Assembly (NCBI RefSeq): GCF_014077505.1
Contig: NZ_JACGWA010000001.1
Coordinates: 372,001-436,000, forward strand
DNA: 64,000 nt
Reading direction: 5' to 3'
Source: Colwellia sp. BRX10-3
GTDB lineage: Bacteria > Pseudomonadota > Gammaproteobacteria > Enterobacterales > Alteromonadaceae
The position numbers and the translations under genes are program-made. Of this stretch, positions 25,220 through 35,860 are shown in pieces; position 1 is the first letter of the stretch, and every line of letters starts with the position of its first letter. The notes below the pieces were generated by a model, which saw nothing but the letters and a program-made list of their open reading frames with translations, was not told the origin of the DNA and searched no databases.

Positions 25220-25248
25220 TTGACAAGCTATAGCAATGGGTTCAAAAT
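25220..25248 (+). promoter_or_regulatory. Candidate sigma-70 promoter for the B12 riboswitch transcript
   Basis: TTGACA at 25220-25225 and caaaat at 25243-25248 with 17-base spacing. The -35 is perfect and the -10 matches four of six. The start would be near 25255, just before the aptamer's P1 strand at 25265. Confidence 0.55.
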
Positions 25249-25264
25249 TGCGGCTCAAAATTGC

Positions 25265-25411
25265 TTAGGTGCTCGATATTTATACGTTAACAACGTAAAA
25301 ATTAAGAGATAATCGGGAAGTTAGTGACTTTGCTATACGCATAAGTCTGACGCTGCCCCCGCAACGGTAATACTTTGTTAATTACAAAGTTAAGCCCGGA
25401 GACCGGCCTAA
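25265..25411 (+). promoter_or_regulatory. Cobalamin (B12) riboswitch aptamer
   Basis: Conserved cores appear in order: cgggaagttagtg (the AGGGAA...GGTG element), gctgcccccgcaacggta (the B12-box-like core), and aagcccggagaccggcc. A short P1 closes it, 25265-25269 (ttagg) with 25407-25411 (cctaa). The btuB gene begins 116 bases downstream. These riboswitches bind adenosylcobalamin or related forms and reduce expression of B12 uptake genes. The location and core elements make the call firm; the exact ends are estimated. Confidence 0.93.
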
Positions 25412-25500
25412 ACAACATAGAATTATTTGCAGTGCGGTGGGCGCTACGGAAATATAATGACATTAGCTTCAATTTAGCTAAATCGTCAGTAATCTTCCGT

Positions 25501-25527: not shown

Positions 25528-27525
25528 ATGTTCTCTTATTTACGCTATTTATTTATAATTTTCCCTGTGGCTATGCCCACTTTTGCACAAGATGAACCTG
25601 CTTCTGATGAAGAACTCGAAGTTATCGAAGTTGTAAATGATCAAAGTTTCAACTCACCTAATTATCAAGTGTTGCAGCGTGAAAGTTTTGTCCATTCATC
25701 ACAAACCCTTGCTGATATTTTACAATCTGTTAATGGTATTCAAATTCGTCAAATAAGTGGTATTGGTAATCCTGTCTCAGTTTCTATTCGAGGCTCGAGC
25801 AGCAAGCAAGTACAGCTCTATATTGATGGTCAACTTATTAATGATAGTCAGTTTGGTGGTTTTGACTTAAACCAAATTCCTACTGAACAAATTGAAAGTA
25901 TTGAAATTAGCAAAAACCAAGCCATTGGCACTGGCGCGACGCCCATTGGCGGCGTTATACGCATCAACACTTATAATCCGACTGAAGACACCAGTAAGCT
26001 AACATTAGCCACAGGGTCATTTGGCTATCGTGAAGCTAACATATTATTTAATAAAGCCTTTAAGGCTCATAGTCTGTCATTTGGTGGCCATTATGTTCAG
26101 AGTGACAATGATTATGACTTTCTTGTGCCGCAAAGTTTTGAAGATAGCACCAAGTCAGATGTACAAGCATTAAGAAATAATGAGTTCACCAAGAAGACTC
26201 TGTTTATCAATGATATTCTTCAATTTGGTCAACATCAGATCAGATTAAATCTCCAATACAATGATCAAGACAAACACTTGCCCAACTATCGCAATAACTC
26301 TCCTGAAAATAGCTCAGCCTTAAACTCAGACAACATTCGCTATAGTTACCAGCATCAATGGTTAAGTAATTCATCTTGGTTAGATTCAATAGAGTTTGAA
26401 GCTTATGCTGAAGACAAAGACGAACGTTATATTTCGAGCCAAGACTCAGTAATATTTGATATCAATAATTATAAAACCAACAAGCAACATATAGGCTTTA
26501 AACCACTACTGACTTGGCATACCTTTAATCTGATACCTTTTATCAGTTTCAATAAACAAAAATTTTCCTCTGTTAGTCAACATAATGGTCAACCAACACA
26601 ATGTAATGGTATTGGTTCATGTGATATTTCGGCAAAACAAAAAAAATTCAACCTAGGTTCTCGTCTAGAGTGGCAACCCGTGTCATTGCCTATGGAAGCT
26701 TACGTATTGATCAGTAATTTACGTGAAGAAAACTCAAACACGGCACGTAATCAGCCCGATGCTGAAAAATTTCAAGACAATGAAACTTACTTAACCACCG
26801 AATTAGGCTTAAGTGTTAAACATGAAAATTATAAAATTACCGCCAACTTAAGTGACGGTGTAAGAACACCAACACTATACGAATTATTTGGAGATCGCGG
26901 CTCTTTTAAAGGTAATGACAATTTACTTCCTGAAGAAGCCAAGACACTTTCAGTTGGGGGTCAATATAATGATAAAAAGCTGTCAATATCATCTTCCGTT
27001 TACCAACAAAAATTAGAAAATTCTATAGTCGCTATTTTCAATTCAAGTAATGTTGGCAGCTATAGTAATGTCAGTGATGCAAATTTATTAGGCTTTGAAA
27101 TCCAAGTTAATTATCAATTATTTGATGCACTATCCTTATCGTTACAAGCGAACCTAATTGACAGTGAAATTGAATCTGACTTTGTCGCATTTAATAATAA
27201 TAAGCTACCGGGCATCTATCATCAGCAATACAGCGTCGCGCTAAAATATAAAGTAAATAAAGCATGGCATATGTCATTTAAAACCAGTCAAGACAAAGAC
27301 TTGTACTTCAATCTTATTAACAGATTTCAAAATGACGTTAGTCACTTTGGTAACGGGAATCCAGCCAACCGCACAGTATCTGATCTGTCAATATATTGGA
27401 AACAAGACAAGCATCGCGTGTCTTTCAGTGCCAACAATCTATTTAATGATAAGTATCAAGATCTTGCGAACAGAAGATCGCAAGGTCGCAGTTTACAAAT
27501 AAAATACACAATCGAGGGATTATAA
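25528..27525 (+). CDS. btuB: TonB-dependent vitamin B12 receptor BtuB
   Basis: 665 residues from ATG 25528. An earlier in-frame start at 25375 would lie inside the riboswitch and is rejected. Signal peptide ends near FAQ (residue 21), a TonB box-like ELEVIEVV lies at about 30-36, then a plug domain (QTLADILQSVNGIQIRQISG, VSIRGSSSKQVQLYIDGQ, IESIEISKNQAIG) and a barrel of TonB-dependent receptor type with the late motif VSFSANNLFNDKYQD. The riboswitch identifies the substrate as a corrinoid. The C-terminus extends a few residues past the last strand (IKYTIEGL) rather than ending in an aromatic residue. Its stop TAA is immediately followed by the ATG of the lipoprotein gene. Confidence 0.93.
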   Translation: MFSYLRYLFIIFPVAMPTFAQDEPASDEELEVIEVVNDQSFNSPNYQVLQRESFVHSSQTLADILQSVNGIQIRQISGIGNPVSVSIRGSSSKQVQLYIDGQLINDSQFGGFDLNQIPTEQIESIEISKNQAIGTGATPIGGVIRINTYNPTEDTSKLTLATGSFGYREANILFNKAFKAHSLSFGGHYVQSDNDYDFLVPQSFEDSTKSDVQALRNNEFTKKTLFINDILQFGQHQIRLNLQYNDQDKHLPNYRNNSPENSSALNSDNIRYSYQHQWLSNSSWLDSIEFEAYAEDKDERYISSQDSVIFDINNYKTNKQHIGFKPLLTWHTFNLIPFISFNKQKFSSVSQHNGQPTQCNGIGSCDISAKQKKFNLGSRLEWQPVSLPMEAYVLISNLREENSNTARNQPDAEKFQDNETYLTTELGLSVKHENYKITANLSDGVRTPTLYELFGDRGSFKGNDNLLPEEAKTLSVGGQYNDKKLSISSSVYQQKLENSIVAIFNSSNVGSYSNVSDANLLGFEIQVNYQLFDALSLSLQANLIDSEIESDFVAFNNNKLPGIYHQQYSVALKYKVNKAWHMSFKTSQDKDLYFNLINRFQNDVSHFGNGNPANRTVSDLSIYWKQDKHRVSFSANNLFNDKYQDLANRRSQGRSLQIKYTIEGL

Positions 27526-29007
27526 ATGTTAACAAGTTTTAGAAAACAATTACTGCCACTAAGTTTAGTGATCGGAACAACTATACTTGCAGGCTGTGGT
27601 GGCGGCTCAGACAGTAATGACGCTCCACTAGTTACCGGTGCAACTAGCCCTATCGTTGAAGAGAATACAACATTAGTTAGCAACTATAATGCAACAGATG
27701 CTGATGGCGATGCCATAACCTTGTCTTTAAGCGGTAGTTCCAGTAGTTTGTTTACTATCACACAAGCCGGTGAATTAAGCTTTTTAAACGCCCCTGATTT
27801 TGAAAATGGCGATGTAGGTCCTTTCGCCGTAACTATTATTGCTACTGACGACAGTAAAAAACGTTTAACGGGCGAGTTATCCGTTCAAGTAACGGTTGGT
27901 GATGTTAAAGACACACCTTCGTTTGCCGTTGTGCAAACGGTTGCACCTGATTATTCAGGCTCAGAAGTCGTTACATTAGATCCCTCAACACAATTAGTGA
28001 CTAAAGGTTATTACATTAAAGATGGCTCTGACTACACGGTACGTAGTTACAATAAAGACGTTTTTCATATCGGTCGTTTCTTTATTGACACAATATCAAA
28101 ATATAATGCAGATGCCCTTGATACTGAAATCTGGACTTATACTACACAAGATAATGGCGATTCTAGTTCACGTAATCCATACGATATCGTTTCGGTAAGT
28201 GAGACTAAGGCCTATATTTTGCGCTACGGTTCAAGCAAGGTTTGGATTGTAAACCCACAAGCAACCACAGCTGAAGACTTTAAAATTGGCGAATTAGATC
28301 TTGACGCTTATATAGATAGCAATAATAGCAATGGTACACCTAACCCTGCAGCAGGTGCTGTGGTCGATGGTAAATTATTTATTGCCTTACAACGTTTGGA
28401 TGACTCTTATGCACCAAATACGGCTTACATTGCTGTTTTTGATACTGAAACCGACCTAGAAATAGAAACTAACGCCAACGCTGATGACGCAGTTATGGGC
28501 ATTCCTTTAGTGGGTATAAACCCACTTGATAACAGCATTGTTAGCAAAGATGGCATCGTTTATGTAACGACCCGTAACTCATACACAGACACTGATTTAA
28601 CTTTCAGCCGTATTGAAGCTATTTCAGCAAGTGATTACAGCTTGAGCACAGTATTGACTGCTGCCGATATAGCCGGCAATTCAGGTAGTTTTATTGGTTC
28701 AAGTGTGATCGTTTCTGCAACAAAAGGTTATTTCGTAGCTGGTGAAACTTTTTACTCGCCTTATCGTGTACTTTCAACTGTTTACAGCTTCAATCCAACA
28801 ACTGGTGCTATTGCTGATGAAGGACTAGTAGATACGGGTTCAGAGCAAATAAGCCATATTAATTTAGATGCCGCGAATTACCTTTGGATCAGTGTTAGCA
28901 ACCCAACTAATCCAGGTGTTGACGTAATAAATACTGAAACAAATATAAAAGCGCTACCTAGATTTGCCACTGATTTAAACCCAACGGCCATTGCATTTAT
29001 CGAATAG
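27526..29007 (+). CDS. Surface-type lipoprotein, cadherin-like domain plus probable beta-propeller; BtuG-like candidate
   Basis: 493 residues. The signal peptide ends in the lipobox LAGC (Cys24) followed by GGGSDSN, a flexible lipoprotein tether. Residues about 40-125 form a cadherin-like domain (NATDADGDAITLSLSG, LFTITQAGELSF, VTIIATDDS). From about 135 to the end, repeats resembling propeller blades recur: KAYILRYGSSKVWIVNP, KLFIALQRLDDSYAPNTAYI, IVYVTTRNSYTDT, KGYFVAGETFYSP, YLWISVSNPTN. It starts directly at the btuB stop, with gaggga as ribosome binding site, so it shares the B12-regulated mRNA. In Bacteroides, BtuG is a beta-propeller surface lipoprotein that hands B12 to BtuB. I infer a similar role; I cannot test homology here, and convergence or another envelope function remains possible. 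Confidence 0.65.
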   Translation: MLTSFRKQLLPLSLVIGTTILAGCGGGSDSNDAPLVTGATSPIVEENTTLVSNYNATDADGDAITLSLSGSSSSLFTITQAGELSFLNAPDFENGDVGPFAVTIIATDDSKKRLTGELSVQVTVGDVKDTPSFAVVQTVAPDYSGSEVVTLDPSTQLVTKGYYIKDGSDYTVRSYNKDVFHIGRFFIDTISKYNADALDTEIWTYTTQDNGDSSSRNPYDIVSVSETKAYILRYGSSKVWIVNPQATTAEDFKIGELDLDAYIDSNNSNGTPNPAAGAVVDGKLFIALQRLDDSYAPNTAYIAVFDTETDLEIETNANADDAVMGIPLVGINPLDNSIVSKDGIVYVTTRNSYTDTDLTFSRIEAISASDYSLSTVLTAADIAGNSGSFIGSSVIVSATKGYFVAGETFYSPYRVLSTVYSFNPTTGAIADEGLVDTGSEQISHINLDAANYLWISVSNPTNPGVDVINTETNIKALPRFATDLNPTAIAFIE

Positions 29008-29038: not shown

Positions 29039-29066
29039 AAAACCGCTTTACAGCGGTTTTTTTATT
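29039..29066 (+). terminator. Rho-independent terminator of the btuB operon
   Basis: Stem 29039-29046 with 29053-29060 (aaaaccgc/gcggtttt), then a T-rich tail ttttatttttg. Confidence 0.9.
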
Positions 29067-29409
29067 TTTGAGCAACTAACTAACAATATGCCAAAACAGT
29101 ATTAACGTTAAATTCAGCTTTATCAGACACGAAATATCTGTGCGACACAAAATGCCTGTTTAAACTCATTCAACCTAAGGTGACAAATTAATATTAAATA
29201 CAGATAAGCTTATCGCATTAATAACTAAACTATTGCGCGGAAAAATCAAAAGCACGAAACATTAAAAAATTAATCATTAGGTCTCACTTTTTGATAAAGT
29301 AAAAACACTCAGTCTAAACATCACTTATTCATAGCGAAACTTTACTTATAAACAAGTAATGAAAAGACAATGTTATGACAAGACAACTGTGAATCAACAA
29401 GGAAAATGC
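29067..29409 (+). other. Leader region of the cobalamin-binding protein gene
   Basis: 343 AT-rich bases that must hold the promoter of the next two genes. I find no riboswitch core elements, so B12 control here, if any, is not by a second aptamer. CAAGGA at 29397-29402 is the ribosome binding site for ATG 29410. Confidence 0.5.
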
Positions 29410-30222
29410 ATGACTTCAGTTCCTGAACCTAAATGGCCAGAGCGAATTATCTGCTTAACAGAAGAAACGACAGAAGCACTTTATCTTATGGGGGAAGACC
29501 ACCGTATTGTTGGCATTTCAGCCTATACAATGCGCCCAGAACGCGCTCGAAAAGAAAAAACAAAAGTCAGTGCTTACATAACTGCAAGAACAGATAAAAT
29601 ATTATCGCTAAAACCAGATTTAGTTTTAGCATTTTCTGACATGCAGGCTGATATCGTCGCAGACTTGATTAAAGAAGGTATACAAGTTCACTGCTTTAAC
29701 CATCGCAGTATTAGCGAAATTCTGCAGATGATACGCACGTTATCGGGCTTAATAGGCCAGCCAGAAAAAGGCGAAAAACTTGTCACTGATATGCAAAACA
29801 ATTTACGTAGAATTAAACAACAGGCGGAAAAATTACCCGTGCGACCAAAAGTTTATTTTGAAGAATGGTTTGACCCCATTATCACAGGAATTGGTTGGGT
29901 AAGTGAGCTGATAGAAATTGCCGGCGGAATAGATTGCTATCAAGAATTTTCAACACAATCATTAGCAAAAAACCGTATTGTGGCTGATGCCAGTGACGTT
30001 ATTGCCAAACAACCAGATATTTACATTGCCTCTTGGTGCGGTCGTAAATTTGATCAAGAAAAAGTAACATCTAGAGTCGGTTGGCAAGACATACCCGCCA
30101 TAAAAAATGGCGATATTTTTGAGATAAACTCGACCGATATCTTACAACCAGGGCCTGCAGCACTAACCGATGGTGTAGAACAATTGGCTGAAATTATCAA
30201 ACAATGGGCTGCACGCGCATAA
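29410..30222 (+). CDS. BtuF-like cobalamin-binding protein
   Basis: 270 residues from ATG 29410; an upstream in-frame start at 29359 lacks a ribosome binding site. The protein resembles periplasmic cobalamin-binding BtuF-type folds (helical backbone protein of cluster A): PERIICLTEETTEALYLMG, IVGISAYTMRPERA, LKPDLVLAFSDMQADIVADL, and a C-terminal NGDIFEINSTDILQPGPA. Oddly, no signal peptide is visible in either start choice, so its location is uncertain. Cytoplasmic homologues are common in proteobacteria and their job is unclear. It ends one base before the start of a giant sensor kinase gene, so the two are almost certainly co-translated. Confidence 0.82.
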   Translation: MTSVPEPKWPERIICLTEETTEALYLMGEDHRIVGISAYTMRPERARKEKTKVSAYITARTDKILSLKPDLVLAFSDMQADIVADLIKEGIQVHCFNHRSISEILQMIRTLSGLIGQPEKGEKLVTDMQNNLRRIKQQAEKLPVRPKVYFEEWFDPIITGIGWVSELIEIAGGIDCYQEFSTQSLAKNRIVADASDVIAKQPDIYIASWCGRKFDQEKVTSRVGWQDIPAIKNGDIFEINSTDILQPGPAALTDGVEQLAEIIKQWAARA

Positions 30223-30223
30223 T

Positions 30224-33200
30224 ATGTTGAAATTTTTGCGTAATAAAAAAGCCTTATTGGCTTTATTCTGTCTATTAACTTTACTTATTAGCCGCCAAAG
30301 CACAGGGCAAGAACTCGAAAAAGTTTCCATTCAATTCAATTGGTTTCACCAATTTCAATATGCGGGTTACTATGCGGCAAAAGAACAAGGCTTTTATCAA
30401 GAGTTAGGATTAGATGTAGAGTTAAGAGAACGCAAAGAAATAGGTGCCATTGAAGATTATATTATTGAGGGTAAAGCAGATTATGGCATAAATGACTCTA
30501 GCTTAATCATTGCTAAAAGTCAGGGTAAACCTGTCGTTATTGTTGCACAAATATTTCAGCATTCCCCCACAACTATCACAACATTGCGATCTTCCAGCAT
30601 CGCCAGTCCATTTGATCTGATTGGTAAGCGCATCATGGTAGATAAAAAATGGAAAAACTTTGCCCCGATTACTGCCATGCTAATGCAAGCAGAACAAGAT
30701 ATGTCAGCGTTTACTTGGCAAGAGAAAAGTGGCAGCTTTGCCGCATTAACACTTGGTGAAACCGATGCTATTTTAACTTATAGCACCAATGAGCCGTTCG
30801 AGTTTGAGCAAGCAGGTATTGATATATTAACTATTAGCCCTAGAGACTACGGTATTGATTTTTATGGTGACAGTCTTTTTACCAGCGAGTCAGAGGTTAA
30901 AAACAATCCTCAACGTGTACAGGCTATTCGTCAAGCAACCATTAAAGGTTGGCAGTATGCACTTAACCATCAAGCAGAAATCATTAAGTTAATTGAAGAT
31001 AAATATAATAGCCAAGGAAAGTCTCATCACCATTTAGTTTTTGAAGCCAACGAAATCAGTAAAATAATTTTAGCTAAATTTATTCCTCTGGGTTCAATCA
31101 CTAGAACCCGTATGGAAAAAATCAGTGAAATTTATCACCAACTTGGCATGATAGATACGCCTTTTATACCCCATAATTTATTACTCGAAGATGCCCTAAA
31201 CAGCTTTGCACCTAAGCACAGTACCTTCGATAGTAGCACCTTGTTAATTATCATGATGATATTGATATCATTATTATTAATTTTTTCTACACTGCTACTA
31301 CCAAAAATAATTAGCCAACAACGCCTAGCCTCATTTATGGCATCGCGCAAATTTCCATTCATCGTACATTCCATATCGATACTCAATATTGCGATTATAT
31401 TCACTGTTATTTACCTGACACTGCAAGATGATGAAAAAATCACCCGAGCCAACATGCAAAGGAACCTTGAATTTGTGGTCGAAGCAACAAAAACTCGACT
31501 CCATGATTGGATCAGCGAACAAGAAAGGTTATTAAAACAAATAGCTAAAAATGACATTGTGGTCAAACTTACTAGAGAATTGCACTTGCAGTCGGCGTTA
31601 AACGAAACGCTTAGAACGTCAGAATCCACACAAAAAATTCGTCAATATTTTCGTCAAAGTAGCATTGAAGGAATAGACTTCTCCATTATTAGCTCTGAAC
31701 ACATCAACATTGGTTCTAATCGTGATGAAAACTTAGATAAAATCAACGTAATAGCACAGCAACATCCCGATATTATCGCAGCTGTTTTTGCCGGAGAAAG
31801 TCACTTTGTGCCACCAAAAAAACTGGATGTATTAGGATCATTAAGTAACCCTAACAATCCCATAGACCAATACAGTATGTTTATGATCACGCCGATCATT
31901 AATGATCGTAATCAGGTTATTGCGGCATTGTCTATGCGAATTCAACCTAGTGGCCAAATATCTAACATTATGCAGCAAGGCCGTATTGGCGACTCTGGCG
32001 AAAGTTATTTAGTCAGTAGACAAGGACAAATGCTTTCCAGAAGTCGTTTTGAGACTGAATTTGCTGCAATAAGCTATTTTCAAGCATTCAGTAAAAGCAA
32101 ACAGCCCATCGCACTTAAAGACCCACAAATAAATCTAATGCAACACCCTGATACGGTTATTGATGGTCAGCAATTACCCTTCACATTTATGGCAAACCAC
32201 CTCGTTAATAGTGCCCGTTCAGATAACATTAGCTTAATTACCAGTAATAAAATAACCAGTAATGTTTTGGGATATAACGACTATCGTGGTGTATCCGTTT
32301 TTGGCGCTTGGTTATGGGACAATAAGTATGGTTTAGGCATCACAACAGAAATCAACGCAAATGAAGCCATGTCTGGGGTAAATTCACTGCGTAACAAATT
32401 GATGTTAATTGCTTTTATCACTCTGTTATTAACCTTAACATCGAACATATTTACCATTTCTGTCGGACAACGTTCAACAAAATATATGCGCCGTTCAAAA
32501 GAAGAACTAGAGCAACTGGTGGTAAAGCGCACGGTTGAATTACATCAACGTGAACGAGCATTGTGGGAGTTATACGAACATGCGCCAGTCGCATATGCCA
32601 CGTTAAACGCGCAAGGTGTGTTTATTAAGCACAACTCTGCATTTGCGCATATGTTTAAGCGACCAAGAGAAACGTTTACGTCCTTAAATTGGCAAAACTT
32701 TGTTGCGCCAGCGCATTATGTACATAAAATATTTCAAACTAAATCTCACCCTTTAAAGTGTGAAATTCCAGTAGATATTAACGATACACAAACGATAGAC
32801 ACCATGTTGTCTGCCCTCCCTGTTTATAATGAAGTTGAACAGTTAATTGAGGTGCGATTAACATTAATCGATATTACGCAAAGAAATGCAGCCCAAGCAC
32901 AATTTACCGCGTTAATGGAGTCAGCACCTGACGCCATATTAATGTTAGATAAACATCGAGAACACAGCATGGTCAATTCACAAGTATTAACCATGTTTGG
33001 CTATGAAAAATCTGAGCTGATCGGTGAAAAAATTGAGCAACTATTACCCGAAGAAACAAGTTTACATATTTTTGACCAAATACTGCATGAGTCAACGCCA
33101 GAAAAACAATTACTCGAACTTACCGGAAAGCGAAAAAATGGCAGTGAGTTCTCTGCAGAAGTAACGGTTAGCGCACTTGATATCCATAATGAGCGTTTTA

Positions 33201-35860
33201 TTGTTGCCATTATTAGAGATATTACCGAACGTAAACTGCATGACGCAGCATTAGCTGAACACATTATATTCCAGCAGGCATTGGCCGATACCATTCCTTA
33301 CCCAATATTTGTTAAAGCCCCTGACTCAACATTTACTAACGTAAACAAAGCTTACGAACAAACCTTTAATGTTAAACGAGAAGATATTATTGGCAAAACG
33401 GTACTCGACTTACACTATTTACCCTTAGCAGACCGCAAAGCCTATCAAGCGGAAGATACTGAAATTATTGCCTCAATGGGTATGGTACGAAAAGAAATTT
33501 CGCTTGTTTATGGCGATGGGTTAGCCCATACCACCATGTATTGGGTAAAAAGTTTTGCAAAGGCTGATGGCAGTGCTGGCGGACTTTTAGGCACTTTTGT
33601 TGATATCAGTGAACAAAAAATGGCAGAGCAAACACTCGCCCATGCAAAATCTTTAGCCGAAGATGCGGTTAAAGCCAAATCTAACTTTTTAGCTAATATG
33701 TCGCATGAAATTCGCACCCCCATGAATGCCATTATTGGTATGTCGGCGTTAGCACTAAAAACTAACTTAACACCAGAGCAACAAAATCATATTGCTAAGG
33801 TTAATCTTGCTGCCGAATCATTAATGGGTATCGTTAATGATATTTTGGACTTTTCAAAAATTGAAGCTAATAAACTTGATATTGAAACAATCCCGTTTTG
33901 CTTAGACGATATTTTAGATAATCTCAGTAATATGTTAGTTGATAAACTTAACGAAAAACAAACTGAGCTGATTTTTGATATTGATAAAAACGTGCCGCTT
34001 AATCTAATTGGTGATCCGCTACGCCTTGGCCAAATACTCACCAACCTCGGTAGCAATGCGGCTAAATTCACTGAAAAAGGTGAAATAAAAGTCCACGTTT
34101 CATGCCTTAATAAGCATGAAGATAAGGTAACGTTAAAGTTCTCTATTTGTGATACCGGCATAGGGATGAATACACAGCAACAAGAGAAATTATTCCAATC
34201 TTTCAGTCAGGCCGATTCATCAACAACTCGAAAATATGGTGGCACAGGTTTGGGATTAGCCATATGCAAACGCCTTGTTGAATTATTAGGTGGCGAAATA
34301 TGGCTTGAAAGTGAAGAAAATAACGGTAGTAAATTTCATTTTACACTTAGCTATCGAAGCCAGTCGCTAGAAAATATTGAATCTAAAAAATCTAACTTAA
34401 CTTCGATAACAGGTTTGAAAATTGCCTTAATAACAGACAATGAAACCTATCAGCCAATTTTACAGCGAATTTTAAAATCATTCGGTTTTAAGGTCGAAAA
34501 CTATCACTCTGTCGCGCAGGCATTACCTAAACTAAAACAGCAAACCAACACTTTTGATGCCTTGTTATTCGACCTTATAAATTGCAGTGACAATAAAAAC
34601 TGCAGCGATATTGGGTTAATTCGAGCTGCCAATATTGATTTACCCATATTACATATTCTGCCAAATAAACGAAAAATGTCGGTACTAGCACTCGAAGGAG
34701 ATGAAAAGTATTCCACCATTTTTAAACCGATAACGACCTCAAACTTACTTGACAGCTTATTGATAGCTTTAGGCTACGAAAATCTGCGAAGTGTTAAATA
34801 TAATTTATTTGATAACGAAGCACCTTCTGCAATAGACACACTGCAAGGTGCTAAAATATTACTCGTTGAAGATAATGAAATAAATCAAGAATTGGCCACT
34901 GAATTATTAAATAATCATGGTATTGAAGTGGTGGTAAGCAATAATGGCCAAGAAGCAATAGAGCGCATTAATAATGAACACTTTGACGGTGTATTAATGG
35001 ATTGCCAAATGCCCGTTAAAGACGGCTACACCACCACGCGAGAACTCCGTCAAGATCCACGATTTATCGATTTACCTATTATCGCTATGACTGCCGATGT
35101 GATGGCAGGCGATCGTGAAAAAGCTTTAAAATCAGGAATGAATGAACATATTGGTAAGCCGATCAACACCAGTGAATTATTTGTAAAGTTGGCACAATGG
35201 GTGACACCAATCAATTCATATAACTCACATAAAAAAAACAGTAACAACGACGATAGCGCCCTGTTATTAACACAAGCAAATAAGCAAATTACTCTCCCTG
35301 ACCTTAACGGTATCGATATAAAAGCAGGTTTAGCGATAGCGGAAAATAATCACGAACTTTATCAGCGCTTATTACTTAAATTTAAAGACCACTATGCAAA
35401 TGCGATAGCACCTATAGAAGCAGCATTAAATAAAAATGATTTTGCCACCATAGAGCGTCTAGCACACACCTTGAAAGGTGTAGCTGGCAATATTGGTGCT
35501 ACGCAGCTTTATCAGCTTTGCCAATTATTAGAGAGCAGTGCTAACCAACACAATATATCGCCATTGATTTTAACACAATGTCAGGATGAACTAAGTCGTA
35601 TTCAAGTGGCATTAGCCGCAATAAATCATTCGGTGTCAGCAGAGATGATTTTCAATATTTCAACCTGTAAAACCCTTATTGCGCAATTAAAAATTGACGT
35701 AGATAATTATGATGTTTCCGCTATCGATACCATTCAAACTTTATTATCAATGACTCAACAGCAAGCCTACCATCAACAACTGAAAAACATTATGGCAAAA
35801 GTTGAAGTTTATGAGTTTGACGATGCCGCCATACTACTAAAAGAAATTATAATTGAGTAA
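30224..35860 (+). CDS. NMT1-domain hybrid sensor histidine kinase with phosphorelay domains
   Basis: 1878 residues. Signal/anchor at about 8-28; an NMT1/THI5-like periplasmic binding domain at about 33-310 ([20 protein letters not shown]); membrane segments at about 342-362 and 383-403; a Cache-like periplasmic sensor (about 405-725); a third membrane segment (about 728-750); three PAS domains (about 777-890, 891-1005, 1013-1135); HisKA with His1161 in [16 protein letters not shown]; HATPase with DTGIGM and GGTGLGLAI; a degenerate receiver (about 1396-1515, TDN in place of the acidic pair, and no Thr/Ser at the switch position although Asp and Lys remain); a full receiver (about 1543-1660, phospho-Asp1593 in LMDCQMP); and an HPt domain with His1748 in [12 protein letters not shown]1 domains bind thiamine pyrimidine-type or other small ligands. 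The output regulator is not in the window. Pairing with the BtuF-like gene points to nutrient sensing. Confidence 0.9.

Follow-up and report, generated by a model that had tools for sequence, protein, structure and literature searches.

The DNA analysed here, referred to as the window, is a stretch of 64,000 nucleotides from Colwellia sp. BRX10-3, which belongs to a contig of 1.14 Mb in a genome of 3.87 Mb; positions are counted from its first letter. It carries a cobalamin riboswitch, a gene for a TonB-dependent receptor (btuB), a gene for a lipoprotein and a terminator-like hairpin (Table 1). Since the riboswitch stands ahead, the two genes abut and the hairpin comes after them, riboswitch, receptor and lipoprotein make up a single closed unit. 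The preliminary description of this DNA had stated that the start codon of the lipoprotein abuts the btuB stop and that one B12 riboswitch lies over both genes. Both statements were borne out, as ATG 27526 follows directly, and in the same frame, the TAA at 27523-27525, and the aptamer was matched by RF00174 well above its cut-off. The promoter-like site in front of the aptamer is suggestive by its position only, since the region contains 10 sites of this type where chance alone would give 15.7. The program-called btuB start, TTG 25375, was rejected, as it falls within the aptamer; ATG 25528 is the reasonable choice and leaves a gap of 102 nt. The receptor begins with a signal peptide, as judged by eye.

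Table 1. Features of the btuB-lipoprotein unit in the window
Feature	Position	Strand	Basis or remark
Promoter-like site TTGACA-17-CAAAAT, immediately 5' of the aptamer	25220-25248	+	Position suggestive only
Cobalamin riboswitch aptamer (RF00174)	25250-25425	+	68.6 bits, cut-off 31.5, E 7.8e-15, full model
btuB, divergent partner-type TonB-dependent B12 receptor, 665 aa	25528-27525	+	Plug and barrel domains, tree
BtuG-like propeller lipoprotein, 493 aa	27526-29007	+	
Signal peptide with lipobox LAGC, predicted lipidated Cys24 (codon 27595-27597)	27526-27597	+	
Cadherin-like spacer domain, residues 31-123	27616-27894	+	Cadherin_5 E 0.12, below cut-off
Predicted seven-bladed beta-propeller domain, residues 133-492	27922-29001	+	AlphaFold2 model, structure comparison
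Terminator-like hairpin closing the btuB-lipoprotein unit	29039-29069	+	9-bp stem, then T-rich tail

One other cobalamin riboswitch was found in the genome. It leads btuD-like, btuC-like, cobA and btuF-like genes, of which cobA alone scores above its NCBIfam cut-off, and these genes would supply the remainder of the import path. Closer to the unit, the ORF 29359-30222 encodes a BtuF-like protein (Peripla_BP_2), but it was rejected as the partner BtuF, because no signal peptide was recognised by eye and the other btuF-like gene sits with the btuCD-like genes. Its homologues, 91-93% identical, are located beside a second riboswitch-led cluster in two related loci (L033, L034). The adjoining ORF 30224-35860 encodes a hybrid histidine kinase of 1878 aa with an N-terminal NMT1/THI5-like domain, PAS, receiver and Hpt domains and a sub-threshold Cache match.

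The lipoprotein and its predicted fold

The signal peptide of the lipoprotein ends, as had been claimed, with the lipobox LAGC at residues 21-24. A lipoprotein signal, which is one of the criteria for BtuG, is predicted on this basis for the window's protein, and the lipobox pattern, as we defined it, was present in 52 of the 54 homologue ORFs scanned. Asp at +2 was seen in only three of these 52; by the textbook sorting rule, scarce Asp at this position favours outer-membrane sorting. The earlier claim of a cadherin-like domain was less firmly borne out. The N-terminal stretch matches portions of large proteins in other genomes with E down to 2e-13, but the Cadherin_5 match stays below its cut-off and the AlphaFold2 model has a pLDDT under 50 for residues 1-131. 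The spacer is missing from many homologues: proteins of 489-497 aa, like that of the window, were found at 16 of 26 loci and proteins of 394-456 aa at the other 10, and in one locus (L110, 6454-8028) a Calx-beta domain precedes the propeller, replacing the cadherin-like one.

In the window's propeller no Pfam or NCBIfam family was found above cut-off, the NCBIfam scan covering the lipoprotein of the window only. Among the homologues scanned, the Pfam matches were sporadic and marginal. Reg_prop reached 20.5 bits in one of them (L118; cut-off 20.4), and DUF5074 (PF16819), which we take to be the Pfam family that includes BtuG, gave 27.1 bits in 1 of 31 members (L078; cut-off 27.2, E 2.8e-6), while the remaining matches had E of 3e-4 or worse. 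In the window's genome DUF5074 had no match at E up to 1.

The AlphaFold2 model, made with seven sequences, is an all-beta propeller over residues 133-492 with pLDDT mostly 70-94, which agrees with the blade-like repeats read from the sequence in the preliminary description. The structure prediction proposed there gave a seven-bladed propeller, the number of blades being our own reading of the strand list, in which the last strand closes the first blade. In a Foldseek search of 350,542 PDB chains, BtuG chains occupied ranks 1-9 (E 6e-12 to 2e-10), followed by NirF, Lp49 and XusB. In the VIA-align 2 comparison with the PDB the eleven best rows were all BtuG (Z 29.1-32.1, rmsd 2.8-3.0, 304-314 residues aligned), and next came 6-phosphogluconolactonases and a YVTN propeller at Z 27.8, with XusB at 26.4. 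The 3dsm and BT2095 entries were identified as BtuG with the help of the accessible text of PMC6143338 (eLife 2018).

Since propellers are common and resemble each other, the comparison was repeated with a distant homologue from a Bermanella MAG, 37% identical and the most distant among the related loci collected. The replicate model was poorer (mean pLDDT 62.5). Its nine best Foldseek hits and its eleven best VIA-align 2 rows (Z 22.6-24.5) were all BtuG, YncE being next at Z 22.2, within a tie of the lowest BtuG row. The proposed likeness to BtuG is thus seen in the main model and in the replicate, where the lead lies within ties, and a seven-bladed propeller most like BtuG, the fold criterion for BtuG, is what the modelling predicts. 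From a viral structure library only generic propellers were obtained among the best 50 matches listed.

Conservation was not enriched on the candidate ligand face (top loops 0.458 over 103 residues, bottom loops 0.467 over 52, p 0.63), the blade faces having been assigned by us from secondary structure only; conserved single polar residues at the blade tops (N217, D169, N332, R290 and R233) are suggestive only. The propeller domains in a 31-row alignment (A3) are acidic in all 31 cases, with net charges of -12 to -59. Acidic propellers would suit a cationic ligand; marine proteins are often acidic. The face of BtuG is described as negative in the accessible parts of PMC10404256 and PMC6143338.

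Sequence links to BtuG and XusB

The study that defined BtuG used a BLASTP E of 1e-10 as its criterion of sequence similarity. Searched against the PDB sequences up to E 1, the window's protein did not match BtuG, nor did a PDB sequence search find BtuG with the member most BtuG-like by Pfam (L078). Judged by these searches, the family falls outside this criterion, and for this reason we call the protein BtuG-like and not a member of BtuG. A profile of the gammaproteobacterial rows alone reached BtuG at E 0.06-0.22, and after addition of three XusB/DUF4374-type Bacteroidota rows at E 0.0017-0.0025. These matches are weak and cover one or two blades, and unrelated proteins outscored BtuG in all three profile searches (a designed propeller and protocadherins in one, two-component-sensor propellers in the two others). 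Proof of BtuG identity by sequence was dropped, given the lack of a single-protein match and the weakness of the profile matches; with E about 0.002 at best, the homology to BtuG may be called suggestive.

Among 72,556 plasmid records searched by tblastn with the propeller domain, two gave a match, both from Bacteroidota (Phocaeicola, E 4e-7; Prevotella, E 2e-8) and both over about a quarter of the query. The two plasmid ORFs (L121 and L122, respectively) are lipoprotein-like and stand right behind a TonB receptor, with no cobalamin riboswitch at either locus. Against the PDB, the Phocaeicola protein found XusB at E 9e-8 and nine chains which we read as BtuG at E 0.005-0.025. The depositors call these nine 'surface layer protein' or 'YncE family protein', and our assignment was made from their entries. 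Neither XusB nor BtuG was found in the PDB with the Prevotella protein, which shares 57% identity with that of Phocaeicola. No DUF4374 match was listed for the members scanned or for the two plasmid proteins, though that of Phocaeicola matches XusB. When the plasmid records were searched with btuB, no match appeared at E 1e-20. In the Phocaeicola massiliensis plasmid record (68-6825), the XusB-like lipoprotein and TonB receptor lie directly behind ORFs which by eye look NRPS-like and PPTase-like.

BtuG, XusB and the gammaproteobacterial family plausibly share a TonB-receptor-propeller ancestor, while for a link to BtuG itself the direct evidence comes from predicted structures and not from sequence. 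The preliminary description had spoken of an independent or distant system; of the two, distant common descent is the likelier, short of proof, and independent origin the less likely.

Pairing with the receptor and exchange with classical BtuB

The propeller domain is encoded in 26 of 295 genomes of the same family, distributed over nine genera. In 55 further family genomes (81 minus 26) whole-protein matches covered the N-terminal cadherin-like or signal part only, and these were dropped from the counts. Carriers numbered 11 of 394 in the order sample, 22 of 369 in the class sample and 1 of 349, the window's own genome, in the phylum sample, for which the share belonging to other classes was not given; the samples overlap and each includes the window's own genome. 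The carriers, among them Cognaticolwellia aestuarii, Colwellia polaris, Colwellia hornerae, Pseudoalteromonas aurantia, a Psychrosphaera and the Bermanella MAG, span at least Alteromonadales and Oceanospirillales. Relatives of the lipoprotein are scattered across Gammaproteobacteria.

The gene neighbourhood was compared in the window and 54 fetched loci (26 + 28), two of which (L115 and L119) are one gene split between contigs sharing 151 bases, so that 54 distinct genes are represented; one genome with a short contig (G032) and fragments in two others (G449, G454) were left out. A TonB receptor gene is located directly upstream, on the same strand, in 54 of the 54 distinct genes. The scripted count gave 52 of the 54 fetched loci, the misses being an over-extended ORF overlapping its receptor (L104) and the contig-end part of the split gene (L119). 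Since a TonB receptor stands directly upstream of every homologue examined, as the survey of relatives suggested earlier was meant to establish, the pairing is more than chance. The identities of lipoproteins and receptors are correlated (r 0.93 over 52 pairs), and shared ancestry alone would give likewise.

A cobalamin riboswitch was found 5' of the receptor at 48 of the 55 loci, that is, the gene stands beside btuB in a cobalamin-riboswitch operon, which is a further criterion for BtuG. Of the seven remaining loci, three are cut by contig ends (L101, L114, L119), one is L120, and in three (L044, L045, L046) btuB and the lipoprotein stand behind a btuF-like gene and others, where extending the search by 5 to 5.5 kb past the DNA fetched at first still gave no cobalamin riboswitch. 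In another locus (L107) the order is riboswitch, btuB, lipoprotein, btuF-like, btuC-like and btuD-like, the last three all scoring under their NCBIfam cut-offs.

At L120 (4161-7572) a gammaproteobacterial TonB receptor which groups with the Bacteroidota receptors of L121 and L122 is followed by a propeller-type lipoprotein and has no cobalamin riboswitch. The match to this locus is weak (E 8.5e-10 and 7e-11), and against the PDB its lipoprotein found neither BtuG nor XusB. Since the receptor groups with Bacteroidota and the riboswitch is lacking, L120 is probably a different system outside the main group, possibly a transferred XusAB-type one; it was kept in the adjacency count.

Cobalamin riboswitches were present in all 17 genomes of the genus. 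Twelve of the 17 carry a classical, solo BtuB and the other five a partner-type receptor, none having both and none neither. The lipoprotein was found in the same five genomes (16 of the 17 were searched for it); the seventeenth (G1019) has no partner-type receptor, and no lipoprotein was seen at its classical locus (L168). Absence of the gene next to btuB in relatives had been named as an observation that would speak against the original reading, but since these 12 genomes have a different, solo BtuB, their lack of the lipoprotein does not refute it. Across the family, 134 of the 269 genomes that lack the lipoprotein have classical BtuB, against 1 of the 26 that encode it, at a threshold of E 1e-60, which was chosen after seeing the gap from about 1e-63 to 1e-49, with four candidates scored per genome. 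The single exception (G281) has the pair and classical BtuB together, so that the two kinds of receptor are able to occur in one genome. Shared ancestry is not taken into account in the Fisher p of 1.5e-6 for the family or in the odds of 1 in 6188 for the genus; both arrangements occur in five of nine genera of the family. We regard this exchange with classical BtuB as the strongest indication that the pair performs the function of BtuB.

For 135 of the 295 family genomes the searches gave no lipoprotein and no classical BtuB at E 1e-60 or better; these genomes may have other types of BtuB or be independent of B12.

By the equivalog model TIGR01779, the window's receptor scores 88 bits, below the cut-off of 599.7, and the classical BtuB of sister genomes, with 412 bits, is below it as well. 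Since both receptors miss the cut-off, the BtuB name here rests on riboswitch, operon and replacement. In the receptor tree a long branch separates the nine classical receptors from almost all of the partner type. The deep forks are weak, and one partner-type receptor (P_L117) falls weakly (46/65) on the classical side, where the tool warns of long branches meeting.

Proposed role and relation to known systems

We consider it likely that the lipoprotein is a BtuG-like corrinoid-capture lid which works with a divergent BtuB dedicated to it. The predicted fold, the lipobox, the operon, the riboswitch, the constant pairing and the exchange for solo BtuB are shown by the analysis above; corrinoid binding, contact with BtuB and an outward-facing position are inferred. 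In Gammaproteobacteria the protein would correspond to BtuG, as a seven-bladed propeller anchored by lipid in the outer membrane. Upon B12 limitation, the lipoprotein and its own BtuB would be made from one riboswitch-controlled unit. By analogy with BtuG, the lipoprotein would most likely be exposed on the cell surface rather than in the periplasm, in contact with BtuB as a lid; one face of the propeller would capture cobalamin or other corrinoids and pass them to BtuB for TonB-driven import, which the BtuF-like and BtuCD-like proteins of the second riboswitch would complete. BtuG itself, as given in the accessible text of PMC10404256, binds corrinoids in the central cavity of the propeller and forms a lid on BtuB.

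The sidedness of the lipoprotein could be the opposite. Most gammaproteobacterial lipoproteins face the periplasm, and with this default orientation the protein would sit on the inner leaflet of the outer membrane, take B12 leaving BtuB and hand it to BtuF. The genomic evidence for a role in B12 uptake is shared by this arrangement, and the rare Asp at +2 fits outer-membrane lipoproteins of either face. The Bacteroidetes lipoprotein export signal, to our knowledge, would not be expected to work in Gammaproteobacteria; that signal is called exclusive to Bacteroidetes in the accessible text of PMC6143338. However, BtuG and XusB act outside the cell (accessible parts of PMC10404256, PMC6143338 and PMC13142918) and the variable cadherin-like or Calx-beta spacers resemble surface spacers. 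Candidates for an export route are also encoded in the genome, namely a type II secretin (548 bits against a cut-off of 351) and a Slam-like protein (33.4 bits against 22). We regard the periplasm-facing arrangement as rather unlikely.

It is still less probable that the propeller binds no B12 and helps to fold, assemble or gate the divergent BtuB, in the manner of BamB in barrel assembly. The constant pairing with the partner-type receptor and the correlated identities would be expected of such a helper, though shared ancestry alone suffices for the latter; the ligand face is not enriched in conservation and BamB appears in the Foldseek list at ranks 21, 26 and 28. On the other hand, BtuG outranks BamB in the structure comparisons, and an assembly factor for a single receptor would be odd under a vitamin riboswitch. 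Kinship with XusB-like proteins keeps a non-B12 ligand possible in principle, but import of a non-cobalamin compound such as a siderophore, as by XusAB, with BtuB a misnomer, is very improbable, since in spite of a receptor far below the BtuB equivalog cut-offs and of XusB-like, siderophore-type proteins as the closest named sequence relatives, the riboswitch at 48 of 55 loci, the btuFCD-like genes in the L107 operon, the replacement of classical BtuB by the pair and the position of L120, with its Bacteroidota-type receptor and no riboswitch, outside the main group all argue against it.

The lid reading finds no precedent in the class in the sources consulted. In the accessible text of PMC6143338 (eLife 2018), no BtuG was present outside Bacteroidetes among 313 gut genomes, and BtuG is described as exclusive to that phylum and tied to gut competition. 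The accessible parts of PMC8941943, PMC13398666, PMC13142918, PMC11287211 and PMC3228920 contain no mention of a gammaproteobacterial BtuB-propeller pair, and in PMC12751083 neither the phylum nor propeller terms occur. A literature search, with preprints and most subscription papers outside its range, gave no report of such a pair among the matches listed, and the only match for BtuG together with Gammaproteobacteria concerned the BAM complex. The earlier remark that the system is not described for this group is in line with the accessible text of PMC6143338 and, among the matches listed, with this search. As a whole, the observation holds up, and the interpretation given in the preliminary description is supported.

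On balance we lean towards a wider interpretation, to be taken as a whole, in which BtuB with a BtuG-like lid would be a second form of the gammaproteobacterial B12 receptor, scattered in the class and swapping repeatedly with solo BtuB; the module would come from an ancient common TonB-receptor-propeller ancestor or have been exchanged between phyla, and the lid pair would be adapted to very dilute B12 in seawater and sediment. If true, lid-type vitamin receptors would here have their first known example beyond Bacteroidota. A gammaproteobacterial family that is paired with BtuB behind the same kind of riboswitch and stands in for the E. coli-type BtuB suggests that capturing B12 with a lid is a more general answer to vitamin scarcity; it offers separate lineages for comparing a TonB receptor with and without a lid, and a system for asking how a gammaproteobacterium would put such a lipoprotein on its surface.

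Among known systems, the closest solved fold is that of BtuG (BtuG1-3 of Bacteroides thetaiotaomicron; PDB 3dsm, 8bmy, 8ptd, 8blw). Like BtuG, the window's protein is a predicted lipoprotein with a predicted seven-bladed propeller, encoded beside btuB under a cobalamin riboswitch. It differs in having 13-18% identity in structural alignments with no clear sequence match, in its host, a gammaproteobacterium and not a member of Bacteroidetes, in which no Bacteroidetes export signal is expected, and in the cadherin-like spacer often (once Calx-beta) present in its family, and corrinoid binding is putative here. XusB (DUF4374), which works with XusA, is likewise a propeller lipoprotein directly behind a TonB receptor and is linked to the family via intermediate sequences. 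Its ligand, however, is a siderophore (accessible text of PMC13142918), it ranks lower structurally (Z 26.4 against 29-32 for BtuG), and its plasmid-borne relatives lack the cobalamin riboswitch of the window's family. The E. coli YncE, YVTN and 6-phosphogluconolactonase-like propellers have the same general seven-bladed fold, with lower Z scores of 25.4-27.8 for the main model and a near-tie for the replicate (22.2 against 22.6-24.5 for BtuG). The classical BtuB of E. coli type, found in the sister genomes, is like the window's receptor a riboswitch-associated outer-membrane B12 receptor, but no propeller lipoprotein was found in its fetched loci, its TIGR01779 score is 412 bits against 88, and in the tree a long branch sets it in a group of its own.
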